Origin: Saccharopolyspora rhizosphaerae
Lineage (GTDB): Bacteria; Actinomycetota; Actinomycetes; Mycobacteriales; Pseudonocardiaceae
DNA: 64,000 nt
Assembly (NCBI RefSeq): GCF_003931915.1
Contig: NZ_RSAA01000004.1
Coordinates: 124,001-188,000 of the forward strand
Direction of reading: 5' to 3'
Shown: positions 14,791-21,942 of the stretch, piece by piece
How the letters are laid out: each line of letters begins with the position of its first letter
Numbering within the stretch: the first letter of the stretch is position 1
Notes under the pieces: generated by a model
What the model was told of the DNA's origin: nothing
The model's database searches: none
Seen by the model: the letters and a program-made list of their open reading frames with translations, nothing else
Program-made: the position numbers and the translations under genes

Positions 14791-17700
14791 ATGCAAGGCT
14801 GGACAGGGAGTCAGGGACAGCAGGGCGAGATGAACACGCAGCAGCCGAGCCGACCGGTCATCACACCGGCCATGCGGGAGCAGGCCAAGAAGCAGCCCAA
14901 CACCTGGCTGTACGTGGTCGACCCGATCTTCACCGACCCCAACGCCGAAGTGCCACCGTGGGGGTTCATCGGCGGGTACCGCGTCGACGAGCACGGTGAG
15001 ATCACCGACGACTTCTCCCCCAACCCGAACTACCGGCCCTCTCCCGTGGCGCTGCGGCTGCCCGCGCCGAAGAACGACGTCGAGCGCGCCCTGCAGCTGA
15101 CCACCACCGGTTACGCGCAAGGCCAGGCACTGCTGGCCGCGATGCTCGACGCCGAGCTGATCCTGTTCGCCCAGCCGCAGGGCACCGGGCTGTTCACGAT
15201 GGAGCACGAATCGGGTCGTCGTCAGCTGCAGGTGTTCACCTCGGAGGGCTTCCTGCCGCCGAACTGGACGACCTGGCAGCGGATGACCGGCAGGCAGGTG
15301 GCCACCCACCCGCTGGCCGGCATCGACCTGCAGATCAACCCCACCAGCCCGGTGAAGGCCCGGATGCCCGGTGAAGACCTGGTCGCGGTCGCCGCCTCGG
15401 TCCCGCCGAAACCGCCTGCGGTGCCCATGTCCCCGCCGGCAGGCACCCCGATGACCCCGGGCCCGCCCGCGTCCCCGCCCACGGGCACCACGACGTCTCC
15501 ACCCTCGGGCACCGCGATGTCGCCGCCCGCCGGGACCGCCGTGCCCGGCACCGGGTCCGACGCGCCGACCAAGACCGTGCGGGTCGGTCCCGGTGGACCC
15601 GCCGCGCCTCCGGCACCCGCCGCTCCCGCTCCTGCCGAGGCCGTCGAGGCCGAGGAACCCGCCGAGGCCGGCGGAAGCGAGTTCGAGCAGCGGTTTCTCG
15701 GAGCGGTGCTGGCCGGCGCGATCGGTGACGCGCTGGGCGCACCGGTGGAGTTCTACCCGATCGACCAGATCCGCAGCCGCTTCGGTGAGGACGGCGTCAC
15801 CGAGTACGACCGCAGCGGCGAGCACCCCGGCGAGTTCACCGACGACACCCAGCTGGCCCTGTTCACGCTGGAAGGCCTGATCCGCGCGCACAGCCTGGCC
15901 CGCAGCGGCGACTCCGCCGGCCCGCTGCCCGCCGTTCAGCTCGCCTACCAGCGCTGGCTGCACACCCAGGGCTACGCCTGGATGCGCTCGGCCGGGCCGT
16001 TCGCGGCCAAGCACCCCAAGGCCAACGGGTGGCTGGTCGAGCAGACCGACCTGTTCGCCGTGCGTTCGCCCAACAGCACCACCATCAGCGCGCTGCGCGA
16101 GTTCGCCTCCGTCGGAGCTCCCGGCACCTTCGAGCGGCCGATCAACGACTCCGACGACTGCGGCGGCGTGGTCCGCGCGGCACCCGTCGCGCTGTGGTCC
16201 GACGACCCGCGCTCGGTCTTCGAGCTCGCGGCCGCGACCGCCGCGCTGACCCACTCGCAGCCCAACGCCTACCTGCCCGCCGGTGTGCTGGCGGTGCTGG
16301 TCCACCGCCTGCTGCGCGAGGAATCGCTGACCGAGGCGCTCGAGACGGCGCGCGAGCTGCTCACCGCCTACCGCGACCACGAGGACACCGCCCGCGCGCT
16401 GCGGACCGCCGAAGAGCTCGCGCAAAAGGGCAAGCCGACGCCCGAGGAGCTGCGGGACGCGCTCGGCAGCGGCTGGGCCGGGCACGAGGCGCTGGCCATC
16501 GCCGTGTGCGCGGCGCGGTGCACCGAGACCGTGGCCGACGCGCTCATGGTCGCGATCAACCACTCCGGCGACAGCGACTCGACCGGCGCGATCTGCGGCA
16601 ACATCGTCGGCGCCCAGCACGGCACCGCCGCGCTGCCCGGCGTGTGGCTGCGCGATCTGGGCCAGCGCGAGGTCGTCGAGGCGCTGGCCAAGGACGGCCT
16701 GCTCGAGTTCCGCGGCGCCCCGCCCACCGGGGACGCGTGGGCCAAGCGCTACCCGGCCTCCGGCGACGTCTCGGACCTGGACTTCGCCTCCTCACTGCCG
16801 CGCGCGGAAGCCGAAGAGGTGCAGGAGCCGACCGAGGACGAGGACGAACCGGCCGCCGATCCCGCCCCGGAGGTCGAATCGGTCGTCTCGCCACCGGAAT
16901 CTGCCACGCCGCCACCGCCGTCCTCGCCGGAAGACCTGCGCACGCAGCGGATCCTGGGGATGCTGCTGGGCACCGCCGCGGGTGACGCGCTCGGCTTCCC
17001 GATCGAGGCCGACACGCTGACCGACATCCGCGCCAAGTTCGGCGATTCCGGTCTCATCGACTACGTCGACGGGCACCGGCCGGCCGGGTCGATCAGCGAC
17101 GAGACGCAGCTGACCGCCTTCACCACCGAGGGTCTTGTCCGCGCCGCGACCGCCCGCCGCCAGACCGGCTCGACCGATCCCGCAGTGCACGTCCAGCAGG
17201 CCTACCAGCGCTGGCTGCACACCCAGGGCGTCGCCTGGTCCGAGACCGGCGGCCGCGGCGAGCAGCCCGACGGCTGGCTGATCGGCCAGCGCGAGCTGTT
17301 CGACCGCCGGGTCCGGGGCATGACCACCGTGCAGGCACTGCGCGGTCACGCCGGTGGCCAGGAACGGGGGTCGCTGGAGAAGCCGCCGAACGACGCGGCC
17401 GACTGGGGTGCGGTGGTGCGCGCCGCGCCCGCCGCGCTGTGGTCCGAGGACCCGGCGGAGGCGTTCCGCACCGGTGTCCGCACCGCGGTCCTCACCCACG
17501 GCCACGTCAGCGCCTACCTGCCCGCCGGTGCGTTGGCGCTGCTGGTGCACCAGCTGCTGGCCAACCGCTCGCTGCCGCAGGCGGTCGACCGGGCCCTGCT
17601 GGAACTGTCCGAATGGGACGGTCACGAGGAAACGATCACCGCGCTGCGCAAGGCCGTCGAGCTGGCCGCGACCGGCACGCCCACCCCGGAGCAGATCGAG

Positions 17701-19596
17701 GAGGCCTTCGGCACCGCGCACTCCGGCGCCCAGGTGCTGGCGATCGCGGTCTGCGCGGCGCTGACCCACCCGGAGTCGTTCCCGGAGGCGCTGGTGCTGG
17801 CCGCCAACCACTCCGGCGCCAGCGACTCCACCGCGTCGATCTGCGGTGGCATCATGGGCGCCGCGCACACCGCGGCCGCGATCCCGCAGCACTGGCAGGA
17901 GAAGCTGGAGCTGCGCGAGACCTTGGAGTTCCTCGCCGCGGACGCCGACCTGGAGTTCGGTTCGAACCCGCCGTCCGGCCAGCTGTGGGCGGCTCGGTAC
18001 CCGGTTCCCGAGGAGGAGCCCGCTCCCGAGGAGCCCGCGGAGGAGGCATCGGCGCCGCAGGAGGCCGAGGCGGCCGAGGCCGTCGTCGAGGCCGACCCGG
18101 AACCCGACGAGGAGCAGGCCCCTGCCGACCAGGCCCCGACCGACCAGGCCCCGACCGACGAGGGCTCGACCGACGAGGGCTCGACCGACGAGGCCGAGCA
18201 GACCGCAGCCCAGCACGAGTCCGCCGGGCACGTCTCCGCCGACGAGGACACCGTGGACGCCGCCACGGAGCGGACGCCGGTCGCGGCGCTCCCCGCCGAG
18301 GAGTCCCCTGCGGACGATGTTCCGGCGTCCGCCGAGTCCGAGGACTCCGGCGACGAAGGGCTCTCCGACGAGGAGCTCCGGCTGCTGCTGGCGTGGCGCA
18401 AGTTCCGAGACAACGACGACGGTGGCAACAGCGCCGACCTCACCCAGGGACTGCACAAGCTCCTCGTGGAGGCCTTCGGCGAGGAACGCGCCGCGCAGCT
18501 CATCGGCGAGGCCACCGCCGAGGAGGACGAACCCGCAGAGGAGCCCGAGCTCGAGGCAGCCGAGGAAAGGCAGGTCCGGCCCACCCGCCGGGAGCGGTTC
18601 ACCGGCTGCGTGCTCGGTGCCGCGGTCGGCGACGCCCTCGGGGCGCCGTGGATGTTCAGCGACCTGCTCACCACGCTGCGCGAGAACCCCGACGGCGTGC
18701 GCGAGTACGCCGAGCTGTTCGGCCGTCGCGGCACGGCGACCGCCTACACCCAGCAGACCGCCTTCGTGCTGGCCGGTTTGAACGGGCCGAACCCGGACCG
18801 GCCGTCGCTGGTGCGGGCCTCGCTGCGGGACTGGGTGCGCACCCAGGGCGGCCGTCCCATGCCGGACGGCGGCGGCAAGCTCGCCCAAGTGGAAGCGCTT
18901 CGCGCGCAACGTTTCCCGGACGAGGCGACGCTGACCGCGGTGGCCCGCTGGGGCGATCGCAGCGAGAACCCGACACCCGGCAACCCGCCGAACGACGCCC
19001 GCAACGCCGCCGCCACCGCGCGCGGCGCGGTGGTCGGCTTCGAGGTCAGCGACCCGGCCGAAGCGATCACGCTCGGCATCGGCATCGGCGTGCTCACCCA
19101 CGGCCACCCGGACGGTCACCTGCCCGCGGCGGCGCTCGCGGGCCTGGTGTCCGGCATCGACGGCGGCCGGACGCTGGTCGACTCCGTGGAGTTCGTGCTC
19201 GCCGAGCTCGACCGCGTGGAGGGCGCCGAGAACACCGTCCGCGGCTTGCGCGCAGCGTTGGAGATCGCCACCGGCGGACCGGTGTCGCCGACGGTGCTGG
19301 AGTCGCTGGGACTGGGCTGGAACGCACCGGAAGCGCTGGCCATCGCCGTCGCGGCCGCGTTGTCGCACCCGACCTCGGTGGCCGACGCGATCTCGCTGGC
19401 GGCCACGCACGCGGGCAACAGCGCTGCGACCGCCGCGATCTGCGGCGCCCTGGTGGGCACCGCCCGCGGCGCCGGGGAGCTGCCGGAGGAGTGGGTCGGC
19501 GGACTGGAGCTGCGGGAGGTCCTGGAACAGCTGCTCGGCGAGGTGGAGATCGCCGAGACCGAGGTGCCCGAACCGGCCGTCCACCACGCCGGGTAG
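14791..19596 (+). CDS. SseB-like domain fused to three ADP-ribosylglycohydrolase-like domains
   Basis: 1601 aa, far larger than a normal 300-400 aa ADP-ribosylglycohydrolase. Residues 28-200 match SseB-like type VII secretion-associated proteins (PNTWLYVVDP, VPPWG, NPNYRPSP, VERALQLTTTGY). A Pro/Thr-rich linker (203-290) follows. ARH1 (300-655) has the metal motifs TDDT (350-353) and GDSDST (593-598). ARH2 (717-1070) has SDET (769-772) and GASDST, with the first Asp lost. An acidic linker (1071-1265) contains repeated PTDQA and STDEG units. ARH3 (1268-1590) has TQQT and GNSAAT, with all acidic ligands lost. ARH1 should remove ADP-ribose from proteins or nucleic acids; the others look non-catalytic. 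The ATG at 14791 has GGGGG upstream; Met14 is an alternative start. Confidence 0.85.
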   Translation: MQGWTGSQGQQGEMNTQQPSRPVITPAMREQAKKQPNTWLYVVDPIFTDPNAEVPPWGFIGGYRVDEHGEITDDFSPNPNYRPSPVALRLPAPKNDVERALQLTTTGYAQGQALLAAMLDAELILFAQPQGTGLFTMEHESGRRQLQVFTSEGFLPPNWTTWQRMTGRQVATHPLAGIDLQINPTSPVKARMPGEDLVAVAASVPPKPPAVPMSPPAGTPMTPGPPASPPTGTTTSPPSGTAMSPPAGTAVPGTGSDAPTKTVRVGPGGPAAPPAPAAPAPAEAVEAEEPAEAGGSEFEQRFLGAVLAGAIGDALGAPVEFYPIDQIRSRFGEDGVTEYDRSGEHPGEFTDDTQLALFTLEGLIRAHSLARSGDSAGPLPAVQLAYQRWLHTQGYAWMRSAGPFAAKHPKANGWLVEQTDLFAVRSPNSTTISALREFASVGAPGTFERPINDSDDCGGVVRAAPVALWSDDPRSVFELAAATAALTHSQPNAYLPAGVLAVLVHRLLREESLTEALETARELLTAYRDHEDTARALRTAEELAQKGKPTPEELRDALGSGWAGHEALAIAVCAARCTETVADALMVAINHSGDSDSTGAICGNIVGAQHGTAALPGVWLRDLGQREVVEALAKDGLLEFRGAPPTGDAWAKRYPASGDVSDLDFASSLPRAEAEEVQEPTEDEDEPAADPAPEVESVVSPPESATPPPPSSPEDLRTQRILGMLLGTAAGDALGFPIEADTLTDIRAKFGDSGLIDYVDGHRPAGSISDETQLTAFTTEGLVRAATARRQTGSTDPAVHVQQAYQRWLHTQGVAWSETGGRGEQPDGWLIGQRELFDRRVRGMTTVQALRGHAGGQERGSLEKPPNDAADWGAVVRAAPAALWSEDPAEAFRTGVRTAVLTHGHVSAYLPAGALALLVHQLLANRSLPQAVDRALLELSEWDGHEETITALRKAVELAATGTPTPEQIEEAFGTAHSGAQVLAIAVCAALTHPESFPEALVLAANHSGASDSTASICGGIMGAAHTAAAIPQHWQEKLELRETLEFLAADADLEFGSNPPSGQLWAARYPVPEEEPAPEEPAEEASAPQEAEAAEAVVEADPEPDEEQAPADQAPTDQAPTDEGSTDEGSTDEAEQTAAQHESAGHVSADEDTVDAATERTPVAALPAEESPADDVPASAESEDSGDEGLSDEELRLLLAWRKFRDNDDGGNSADLTQGLHKLLVEAFGEERAAQLIGEATAEEDEPAEEPELEAAEERQVRPTRRERFTGCVLGAAVGDALGAPWMFSDLLTTLRENPDGVREYAELFGRRGTATAYTQQTAFVLAGLNGPNPDRPSLVRASLRDWVRTQGGRPMPDGGGKLAQVEALRAQRFPDEATLTAVARWGDRSENPTPGNPPNDARNAAATARGAVVGFEVSDPAEAITLGIGIGVLTHGHPDGHLPAAALAGLVSGIDGGRTLVDSVEFVLAELDRVEGAENTVRGLRAALEIATGGPVSPTVLESLGLGWNAPEALAIAVAAALSHPTSVADAISLAATHAGNSAATAAICGALVGTARGAGELPEEWVGGLELREVLEQLLGEVEIAETEVPEPAVHHAG

Positions 19597-19602
19597 TCCG
19601 CG

Positions 19603-21942
19603 GTGGACGTGCGCGGGCTGGACGAGGACGAACGCGCGCTGCTGGCCGCCTGCAGGCGGGACCCGGTGGAGCGGGAGCTGCTGGCGGTCTGGCGCCGGTG
19701 GGAGCGCCACCCCTCGACCCGCCCGCTGTGGGCCGCCGAGCTGCAGCAACGGCTCGCGGTGGACGCGCGGTCGCCGGGCACCGGGCTCTCCGGCCGCACC
19801 GGCGGACTGCCGGGCACCTCCGCCCGCGTGCAGGGACTGCTGCTCGGCGGAGCGGTCGGTGAGTTCGCCGCGCTCGGCCGCGTCGGCCAGCGCACCGGCG
19901 CGCTGCTGTTCGCCCTGGAAGGGCTGATCCGCGCGCACACCCAGCTGCGCTCCGACGGCTCCGGCGAGCCGACCTCGGCGGTGTTCGCGGCATTGCGCCG
20001 CTGGCTGCACACCCGCGGCGTGCCGTGGCGCGACTGCGGCACCGGTTCGCCCAGGCCGAGCGGAGCGCTCGTCGCGGAGAGAGGTCTGCACGACCTCGCC
20101 AGCGACGAGCCGACGATGCTGACCTCGGTCGCGAAGGTCGTCGCCGGGCACCCGCAGGGCACCCGGCAGCAGCCGATCAACGCCGCCGACAGCGCCACCG
20201 CGGTGCCGTTCGGGGCGCTGGCCGCGCTGTGGTCGGGCGACCCGGGCGCGGTGTTCGCGCTCGGCGGCGACCTCGCCGCGCTCACCCACGGGCACCCGCA
20301 CGGGCACAGCCCGGCCAGCGTGCTGGCCTCCACGACGCTGTGGCTGATGCGCGGCAACGACCTGGAAACCTCGCTGCGGCAGGGGATTTCGGGATGGCAG
20401 TCAGGTCGTACGGCGCTCGGCGAGGCACTGCGGCTCGGGATGCTCAGCCCAGCGGGGTTCCGCCCGGGCCGCGCGCACCTGGGCGCGAGCCGGAGCGGGC
20501 TGGGCGCGCTGGCCGTGGCCGCGCGGGTGGCACTGGCCTGCGAGGACGACTTCGCCGCGGCCCTCGCCGCGGCCACCGAGCACGACGGTGACGCCGCGAG
20601 CGCGGCGATGCTGTGCGGGCAGCTGCTCGGCGCGTTGCACGGCCCCACTGCGATCCCCGCCGAGCTGCTGGAGCGGCTGCCGATCGTGGAGGTGGTCGAA
20701 CGCCTCGGGCGGGACGCGGCCACCGAGTTCGGCCCCGAACCGGACGAGTCAGCCGGGTGGGAGGAGCGCTACCCGGCCGACGACTCCGCCGCCACCGCCA
20801 CCCTCCCGTCCACGGCGGACTACCGGACGGGGCTGACCGGCGTGCCTCGGCTGGCCGCCTCGCGGGACCGCTTCCTCGGCGCGGTGCTGGGCTGCGCGGT
20901 CGGCGAGGCCCTCGGCATGCCGATCGCCTCGGACACCTGGGACGAGATCCGCGCCCGGCACGGCGACGAGGGGCTCACCGAGTACGTCCCCGCCGGTCAC
21001 CCGTCGGGACGCGTCGGCAGCGACACCCAGCTGCTGCTGTTCTCGGTGGAGGGGCTGCTGCGCGCCAACGTCGCCCGGCGCGCCGGTGAGGCCGAGGACC
21101 CGATCCGGCACCTGCAGCACGCCTACCAGCGGTGGCTGCACACCCAGCACTTGAGCTGGCCGCGCGCTGCGGGCGAGTTCCTGCGCGTCGCCCCCGAACC
21201 CGACGGCTGGCTGGTGCGGGAGCGCGCGCTGTTCCAGACCCGCAACCCCGGGCGCACCATGATGCGCACGCTGATCGCCTTCGCCAAGGGCCAGCAACCC
21301 GTGGGCGCGCCGGACCAGCCGGTGAGCGATTCGGCGGGCAGCGACGCCATCCTGCGCGCGATCCCGGCGGCGCTGTGGTCCGACGACCCCTCGGAGGTCT
21401 TCGCGCTGGGCATGCGCAGCGCCGCGCTGACCCACGGCCACCCCACGGCGCTGCTCAGCGCGGGCGTCCTCGGCTACCTGGTGGCCCGGTCGTTGCTCGG
21501 CGAACACCTCGCGGACGCCGTCACCGGTGCGCTCACCCAGCTCGCCCCGCACGCCGGGCACCAGGAGGTGACCCGCCGGCTCACCGCTGCCCGGGACCTC
21601 GCGCGCGGGGACCGGCTGAGCCCGGAGGAGCTCGAACGCGCACTGGGCACGGCCGCCACGGCCGCCGAAGCCCTCGCCTTCGGCCTGCACGCCGCTCTGG
21701 TGGCCGACGGCGACGTCGACTCCGCCCTGCGGATCGCCGCCAACCACTCCGGTGGCAGCGCCGTCACGGCCGCGGTCGCCGGCTCCCTCACCGCGGCCGG
21801 CGCCGGTGCCTCGACGATCTCCCGGCGCTGGACCACCGAGCTGGAACTGCACGACGTCGTCGAGCAGCTCGCCCGGGACGCCGTCCGGGAGTTCGGCCCA
21901 CGACCACCCGCCTCCTGGGACTCCCGCTACCCGCCCACCTGA
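19603..21942 (+). CDS. Protein with two degenerate ADP-ribosylglycohydrolase-like domains
   Basis: 779 aa, GTG start 6 bases after the 1601-aa gene. ARH4 (about 75-395) keeps LRRWLHTRGVPW, LAALWSGDP and LTHGHPHGH but has lost the DD-x-T motif, and has DGDAAS in place of GDSDST. ARH5 (about 420-779) is closer to ARH1 (FLGAVLGCAVGEALGMP, AYQRWLHTQ, ALWSDDP), with GSDT at 472-475 and GGSAVT for GDSDST. Enzyme activity is therefore doubtful for both. The domain order and shared motifs indicate it arose from the same duplications as its neighbour and is co-transcribed with it. A role as ligand-binding or scaffolding partner is inferred. Confidence 0.82.
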   Translation: MDVRGLDEDERALLAACRRDPVERELLAVWRRWERHPSTRPLWAAELQQRLAVDARSPGTGLSGRTGGLPGTSARVQGLLLGGAVGEFAALGRVGQRTGALLFALEGLIRAHTQLRSDGSGEPTSAVFAALRRWLHTRGVPWRDCGTGSPRPSGALVAERGLHDLASDEPTMLTSVAKVVAGHPQGTRQQPINAADSATAVPFGALAALWSGDPGAVFALGGDLAALTHGHPHGHSPASVLASTTLWLMRGNDLETSLRQGISGWQSGRTALGEALRLGMLSPAGFRPGRAHLGASRSGLGALAVAARVALACEDDFAAALAAATEHDGDAASAAMLCGQLLGALHGPTAIPAELLERLPIVEVVERLGRDAATEFGPEPDESAGWEERYPADDSAATATLPSTADYRTGLTGVPRLAASRDRFLGAVLGCAVGEALGMPIASDTWDEIRARHGDEGLTEYVPAGHPSGRVGSDTQLLLFSVEGLLRANVARRAGEAEDPIRHLQHAYQRWLHTQHLSWPRAAGEFLRVAPEPDGWLVRERALFQTRNPGRTMMRTLIAFAKGQQPVGAPDQPVSDSAGSDAILRAIPAALWSDDPSEVFALGMRSAALTHGHPTALLSAGVLGYLVARSLLGEHLADAVTGALTQLAPHAGHQEVTRRLTAARDLARGDRLSPEELERALGTAATAAEALAFGLHAALVADGDVDSALRIAANHSGGSAVTAAVAGSLTAAGAGASTISRRWTTELELHDVVEQLARDAVREFGPRPPASWDSRYPPT

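Follow-up and report, generated by a model that had tools for sequence, protein, structure and literature searches.

The 64,000-bp stretch of Saccharopolyspora rhizosphaerae DNA analysed here (the window; positions 124,001 to 188,000 of NZ_RSAA01000004.1) was found to carry two adjacent genes, designated A and B, which between them encode five domains of the ADP-ribosylglycohydrolase (ARH) family, D1 to D5. The features of the pair, in window coordinates, are as follows.

14791..19596, + strand: gene A (1601 aa), consisting of an NF033532 domain, a linker, ARH domains D1 and D2, an acidic linker and D3
14902..15384, + strand: NF033532 (lone7para_assoc, type VII secretion-associated) domain, A aa 38-198, assigned by NCBIfam, with a weak match to SseB (PF07179)
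15694..16749, + strand: D1, A aa 302-653, with 6/6 metal ligands (TDDT at 350, DSDST at 594)
16951..17997, + strand: D2, A aa 721-1069, with an eroding site (SDET, ASDST) and 4/6 ligands
18598..19581, + strand: D3, A aa 1270-1597, degenerate (YTQQT, NSAAT), with 2/6 ligands
19603..21942, + strand: gene B (779 aa), carrying two ARH domains, both degenerate, 6 bp past the end of A
19843..20769, + strand: D4, B aa 81-389, with most of the first active-site loop absent and 1/6 ligands
20872..21927, + strand: D5, B aa 424-775, degenerate (GSDT, GSAVT), with 2/6 ligands

The likely true start of gene A is the ATG at 14830 (MNTQQP...), as supported by orthologues, and the GC content at third codon positions is 0.92 for A and 0.94 for B. 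An antisense open frame of 1171 codons (16792-20307, minus strand) opposite the two genes looks like a composition artefact, given its position under their high-GC codon bias.

The original prediction had placed five ARH domains in two genes 6 bases apart, and both points were upheld. Pfam family PF03747 matched A at three places and B at two, and each of the five segments passed the cut-off (26.2 bits) when searched individually, the scores in the whole-genome search being 241.8 (D1), 202.8 (D2), 146.8 (D3), 81.6 (D4) and 179.3 bits (D5); gene A ends at 19596 and B begins at 19603. Of the sequence signature said to be common to all five copies, LTH is indeed found in each, while RWLHT and ALWSxDP are present in four and NHSG in three. 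The alignment of D4 to the PF03747 model begins only at model position 44, hence the assignment of its first active-site loop as largely missing. Gene B, modelled alone, gave a predicted structure with a predicted local distance difference test score (pLDDT) of 79, for which Foldseek retrieved ARH/DraG structures such as 1t5j (target-normalised template modelling score 0.80), a match that carries no aligned range and is not assignable to D4. The NF033532 match of gene A, which the original prediction did not include, scored 134.8 bits (E 2.7e-39), above the cut-off of 85 bits, and this domain shares 76-93% identity with those of six other gene-A copies; its model (pLDDT 63) was too poor for a fold search. 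Chance or artefact was ruled out as the origin of the pair, since the five domains pass the Pfam cut-off and the gene-A leader occurs in a long frame in 22/22 Saccharopolyspora genomes.

The state of the active sites was assessed at six ligand positions, namely T/S, D and D in the first motif and D, D and T/S in the second, by alignment to one hidden Markov model, so that the most divergent ARH domains are possibly misaligned in these counts. The list itself (T-D-D and D-x-D-x-T) is what we take to be the metal-ligand set of DraG and ARH3, and the two metal motifs of D1 align with those of DraG 2woe. From D1 to D5, the window copies keep six, four, two, one and two ligands. In the 17 named loci (L012-L028, plus L049, which is the same locus as L019 from an S. 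dendranthemae record) D1 has 6/6 ligands in every case, D2 has 4 to 6, D3 has 2, and D4 and D5 have 1 or 2, L015 being devoid of D4 and D5. Eleven loci from other genera, two of which (L054 and L057) repeat L028 and L015, gave 6 ligands for D1 in ten cases and 3 in L056; 6 for D2 in nine and 3 in L059, D2 being absent from L056; and 2-3 for D3, 2-3 for D4 and 0-2 for D5. Across all orthologues examined, D3-D5 keep 0-3 of the six ligands. Judged from sequence, ARH/DraG-type activity may be expected of D1, and of D2 in many relatives, where the metal site is complete, and would not be expected of D3-D5. Locus L056 (genus g14), with a reduced gene A of two ARH domains, a degenerate D1 and no B match, may represent a natural loss of the putative hydrolase.

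Degeneracy of the sites is not accompanied by decay of the domains. Nei-Gojobori ratios of nonsynonymous to synonymous substitution (dN/dS) in ten orthologue pairs were well below 1 for all five domains and ranged from 0.04 to 0.35 for D3-D5, the outlier being 0.73 for D4 in the pair L014-L020, for which dS is only 0.04. Thus D3-D5 are under purifying selection despite their degenerate sites, and pseudogene decay was ruled out. Among the segments compared, the NF033532 domain had the top identity, outright or tied, in 8/10 pairs and the lowest dN/dS in 5/10.

A tree of 143 ARH domains was built by a quick method with support from the Shimodaira-Hasegawa-like approximate likelihood ratio test (SH-aLRT), has no bootstrap and contains several long branches; the poorly aligned single-domain ARH genes of the window genome (L004, L007) and rows with at least 70 gaps in 351 columns were left out. 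In this tree each of D1-D5 came out as a single group (SH-aLRT 99-100) containing sequences of six genera, or of five for D4 and D5, so that the five copies diverged before these genera did. The predicted internal duplication was thereby borne out, as an ancient event, and a recent tandem duplication was ruled out.

Both composition and surroundings of the pair are conserved. Gene A has three ARH domains in 17/17 named loci and B has two in 16/17, no B match being found in Halopolyspora (L015). Among the 11 loci of other genera, nine have a single A frame that encodes three ARH domains, L061 has the three spread over two frames and L056 has two; B is found in eight, with no B match in L056, L057 and L062. 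In the Halopolyspora genus loci (L015, L057, L062) A is retained, B is not matched and other sequence lies between A and the enoyl-CoA hydratase gene. Upstream of A, cysD, cysN and cbiX were found in 16/17 named loci (L023 begins too near A to show them), and the hydratase gene lies downstream in 17/17; cbiX and the hydratase gene also flank the locus in 11/11 cases from other genera, and at some of these the hydratase gene lies several kb beyond B (or A).

Distribution was surveyed with the NF033532 domain of gene A as query (E 1e-60), and ARH content was checked only in fetched loci. A long-frame copy (1041-2042 aa) was found in 44/390 Pseudonocardiaceae genomes, representing 7/46 genera, in all of which the position of A is kept, B standing behind A in five. 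The order sample gave copies in 18/397 genomes, all from the same family, and the class sample in 1/394, which was the window's own genome. As far as these samples reach, the pair is confined to one group of Pseudonocardiaceae. The premise of the original prediction that ARH enzymes are normally single-domain does not hold for this clade, and is contradicted again by a further ARH array of variable make-up that is linked to a toxin locus. The NF033532 family as a whole is more widespread (117/150 family genomes, mostly short open frames among the matches listed). At the cut-off used, 43 of the 44 gene-A genomes have a second NF033532 match and G190 has only one; in the window genome an NF033532 protein at L029:9362-10252 (G000:C27:735742-736227) has no Pfam ARH match and shares 36% identity with the gene-A domain.

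The genome containing the window has 11 ARH matches, five in A and B, four on contig C27 and two in single-domain genes. On C27 (locus L009, G000:C27:484000-502500) the gene order is P0005, P0004 (two ARH domains), P0003 (two ARH domains) and P0006 (C-terminal TNT domain). P0005 is a polymorphic toxin (open frame of 1816 aa) with a C-terminal ADP-ribosyltransferase (ART) domain (PF03496/PF01129), and the ARH paralogue P0004 stands directly behind it, as expected of an Imm-ARG gene. The best solved match of the toxin C-terminus is 6dre_B, the Tre1 chain of the complex 6dre/6drh (E 6.4e-6), followed by XopAI and HopU1; D1 in turn matches the Tri1 chain 6dre_A (E 1.5e-13), several DraG-type chains scoring better. 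In the domain tree, D1 groups with the mostly intact ARH domains of toxin loci (SH-aLRT 96) and D5 with one degenerate class from such loci (SH-aLRT 97, long branches).

The corresponding locus was taken from 19 further Saccharopolyspora genomes, giving 20 loci with L009; in G013 and G016, whose locus was not taken, the toxin mid-region (ToxMid) had no match. ToxMid together with the TNT gene was found in 18/20 of these loci, L043 and L044 lacking both, and 13/20 carry an NF033532-like domain fused to an ARH protein, as in gene A; L009 is not one of them. ToxMid (L009:16093-16842) is a conserved 250-aa region with HG and LVSC motifs, has no Pfam match and gave one unconvincing match in a PDB search (E 0.89); that it is a self-processing peptidase is a guess. 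In L051 an EspC-type gene (PF10824, E 6.1e-21) lies upstream of the toxin, whose N-terminus has a WXG100-like domain just above cut-off, and in the window genome EccC is encoded about 40 kb from L009. These features make a type VII export route likely for the toxins, as judged from the one locus examined in this respect. Some kb upstream of the toxin locus in L050 lies what we take to be an RpoC-like gene. ARH arrays were also found in L069-L071, from three other genera, with ToxMid at 35 bits in two short open frames of L069 and no ToxMid match in L070 or L071. A close ToxMid (260 bits or more) was present in 24/44 genomes with A and in 0/346 without A, where the best score was 126 bits.

The relationship between the toxins and their neighbouring ARH proteins was examined in 17 loci, L043 and L044 being unused as they have no ToxMid match, and L045 was held out together with L067, L068 and L072 from other genera. 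Toxin classes, assigned by hand from C-terminal BLAST, comprised a 12-member ART group (subclasses A, B and C with three members each and singletons d, e and f), two Scabin-like and three acetyltransferase-like toxins. Pfam scores were above the curated cut-off for both Scabin-like toxins and, in the ART group, for L009, L033, L034 and L035; L031, L032, L037, L038, L039 and L040 scored below it, L046 gave no match at E 0.05 and L042 was outside the scan. Among acetyltransferase-like toxins the scores were below cut-off (E 0.0025 in L047, 0.22 in L030; no match in L041 and L068), and the label rests partly on a sequence motif.

The ARH protein adjacent to the toxin was found to track the toxin class, with a similarity of 0.649 within classes versus 0.256 between them, a difference reached in 0/10,000 permutations; for its first 330 aa the values were 0.638 and 0.055, again with 0/10,000. 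The last ARH gene of the locus, taken as a control in 16 loci (L047 was left out because this gene is split over two frames), showed no link to toxin class (p 0.28), and ToxMid was likewise uncorrelated. As for the held-out loci, L068 was concordant, being acetyltransferase-like in both genes; L072 had L067 as best partner in both genes, while for L067 the best partner was L072 in the adjacent gene and L072 came second in the toxin; and L045 was ambiguous.

In 8/17 loci, namely those of subclass A, e, f and all three acetyltransferase-like ones, the protein beside the toxin has just one ARH domain, which is degenerate (1 to 3 ligands). Seven of the remaining nine have an intact ARH domain, which in L009, L035 and L046 lies behind a degenerate one, while L033 has two degenerate domains and L048 a domain that retains 4 ligands. 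Provided that the ligand list is correct, the few ligands in those eight loci make hydrolysis unlikely, and binding is the simplest reading. The weak acetyltransferase-like toxin C-termini of L030, L041, L047 and L068 lie beside a single degenerate ARH protein, which suggests that the ARH fold may serve as immunity to a non-ART toxin. A single protein of L033 (L033:12344-14752) has two degenerate ARH domains resembling the neighbours of B-class and A-class toxins, and is possibly a fusion in the making of the kind known as polyimmunity, in which immunity genes or domains are arrayed, in some cases with no toxin, as described in PMC3482391.

Taken together, these data argue, with moderate confidence, for A and B being an orphan ARH polyimmunity pair, composed of one or two hydrolases and three pseudo-ARH binders. 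This interpretation rests on the position of a paralogous array immediately behind a toxin with an ART C-terminus in the same genome, on the correspondence of D1 and that toxin's C-terminus to two chains of one solved toxin-immunity complex, and on covariation with toxin class that is found for the adjacent ARH protein and not for the last one. It draws further on the NF033532-ARH architecture of the 13 toxin loci and the tree placement of D1 and D5, the recurrence of ToxMid with the TNT gene, the type VII features of L051 and the EccC gene, the held-out loci, and the restriction of close ToxMid to genomes with A. The make-up of tandem ARH domains in one protein would fit polyimmunity, and by analogy with the toxin-locus paralogues the pair probably neutralises toxins itself. 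The ARH proteins of toxin loci would be immunity proteins, whose intact domains would strip ADP-ribose from targets, as Tri1 does, and whose degenerate domains would bind the toxin C-terminal domain. In the pair, D1 (and D2 where intact) would remove ADP-ribose and D3-D5 would bind toxins. Having no toxin of its own, the pair may provide constant protection from the ART toxins of both kin and competitors, with the NF033532 domain bringing A to type VII effectors or to the secretion apparatus.

A wider proposal, which is offered tentatively, is that catalytically dead ARH domains make up a distinct kind of immunity module that acts by binding toxins, and that the pair is a fixed chromosomal shield of broad spectrum, in which five domains (one or two hydrolases and three inhibitors) are coupled to a type VII targeting domain. 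The fold that reverses ADP-ribosylation would then have been recast as a specificity-determining inhibitor, even for apparently non-ART toxins; in the acetyltransferase-like class the neighbour of the toxin is a degenerate ARH protein in 3/3 loci and in one held-out locus.

Several findings weigh against the orphan polyimmunity reading. No toxin was found next to A and B in any A/B locus searched, the queries being one toxin (P0005) and one TNT protein (P0006), and 20/44 gene-A genomes, including all ten of genus g38, have no close toxin. Co-occurrence of A and the toxin is confounded by shared ancestry, which Fisher's test, extreme as its result is, ignores. With rho 0.26 and p 0.023, the plain Mantel test on the whole matrix fell short of the class test in strength, L033 with its fused B-class and A-class domains working against the signal. 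Moreover, D1 is degenerate in L056, and in S. spinosa (L013) the Glu of its VEF motif, presumably a catalytic gate, is replaced by Lys. Lastly, inheritance of the pair is vertical, its synteny is conserved and its evolution is slow, in contrast to cognate immunity genes, which change fast, so that a housekeeping role is plausible. A mobile element or a local toxin at the A/B locus was ruled out, as the two toxin-locus queries have no match there and synteny is conserved.

Such a housekeeping role is the main rival, judged unlikely on balance. The pair would be a housekeeping or regulatory DraG-like hydrolase that takes ADP-ribose off the arginine of one of the cell's own proteins, D2-D5 being structural or regulatory pseudo-subunits and the toxin arrays later recruits. 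Fixed synteny by sulfate-assimilation genes in seven genera, purifying selection, retention of A in the 20 genomes without a close toxin and the position of DraG-type chains as nearest to D1 among solved structures are all consistent with this; however, the paralogue in the same genome is toxin-linked, close toxins occur only in genomes with A, and the combination of secretion domain and ARH that characterises A is common to proteins of 13/20 toxin loci.

It is less probable still that A is a type VII secretion accessory, with an NF033532 domain that engages effectors or the apparatus ahead of export and ARH domains that act as chaperone or scaffold, keeping the cell's own ART toxins inactive until they leave the cell. 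The name of the NF033532 family, its high conservation in orthologue pairs, the EspC and WXG100 features of one toxin locus and the presence of EccC point this way, but A is kept where no close toxin was found, the domain is widespread and mostly in short frames, so that it does not by itself define the role of the ARH domains, and its model is poor. Simultaneous binding of several ADP-ribose groups by a multivalent reader, as had been proposed for the array from its five domains in two adjacent genes, is very improbable and poorly supported, because metals take part in ADP-ribose binding by ARH/DraG enzymes and D3-D5 keep few metal ligands in every orthologue examined, with D4 also deprived of most of the first active-site loop.

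ARH immunity proteins have so far been described as enzymes that undo damage (Imm-ARG), or that do so and also sequester the toxin (Tri1). In the present case one clade displays ARH domains that grade from intact through eroding to degenerate, positionally fixed and under purifying selection, and at a related toxin locus the toxin-adjacent ARH protein, often degenerate, tracks the toxin type. The graded series and the class-tracking neighbour together raise a testable question, namely how an enzyme-type immunity protein becomes a binding-type one, and suggest a possible role for the share of bacterial proteins annotated as ADP-ribosylglycohydrolase family that are not hydrolases.

Among known systems, Imm-ARG is an ADP-ribosylglycohydrolase serving as immunity to R-S-E class ARTs, and was the only enzymatic immunity then known according to the part of Zhang et al. 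2012 (PMC3482391) available, which also mentions an Imm35-ADP-ribosyl glycohydrolase fusion. The pair resembles what is reported there in the use of ARH as immunity and in arrays without a toxin; tandem or dead ARG arrays do not appear in that part of the paper. Unlike Imm-ARG, the pair is not directly beside an ART toxin and lies between cbiX and the enoyl-CoA hydratase gene. The literature search, which covered titles and abstract beginnings among the matches listed, with subscription journals mostly outside its coverage, returned no description of tandem or dead ARH immunity arrays.

In Bacteroides, as far as the accessible text of PMC11699363 goes, one ART toxin (Bxa) is countered by two neutralising proteins, BAH and Bsi, the latter modelled as an active-site occluder. 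Bsi is a small binder with no predicted enzymatic activity, whereas in A and B a single fold serves for putative hydrolase and putative binders alike, joined as tandem fusions. DraG, ARH1 and ARH3 (2woe, 1t5j, 3hfw, 2foz) have in common with the pair the sequence match and the metal motifs of D1, and B is predicted to fold alike; they differ from D2-D5, whose site is altered or degenerate, and the DraG equivalog TIGR02662 scored 135 bits for A and 55.8 for B, below its 337-bit cut-off.

The closest parallel is Tri1 (6dre/6drh), the immunity protein of the type VI ART toxin Tre1, which acts by sequestration and by ADP-ribose cleavage in the accounts available in part from PMC7827354 and PMC6397177. 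The pair shares its ARH fold, and the two chains of the Tri1 complex are those matched by D1 and by the toxin C-terminus of the paralogous locus. Scores against the Tri1 equivalog NF041672 (117 bits for A and 39.9 for B) are below the 490-bit cut-off. Compared with the single 366-residue chain of Tri1, which belongs to a toxin-immunity complex, A and B comprise five ARH domains, three of them degenerate, and an N-terminal type VII-associated domain, with no toxin found beside them.
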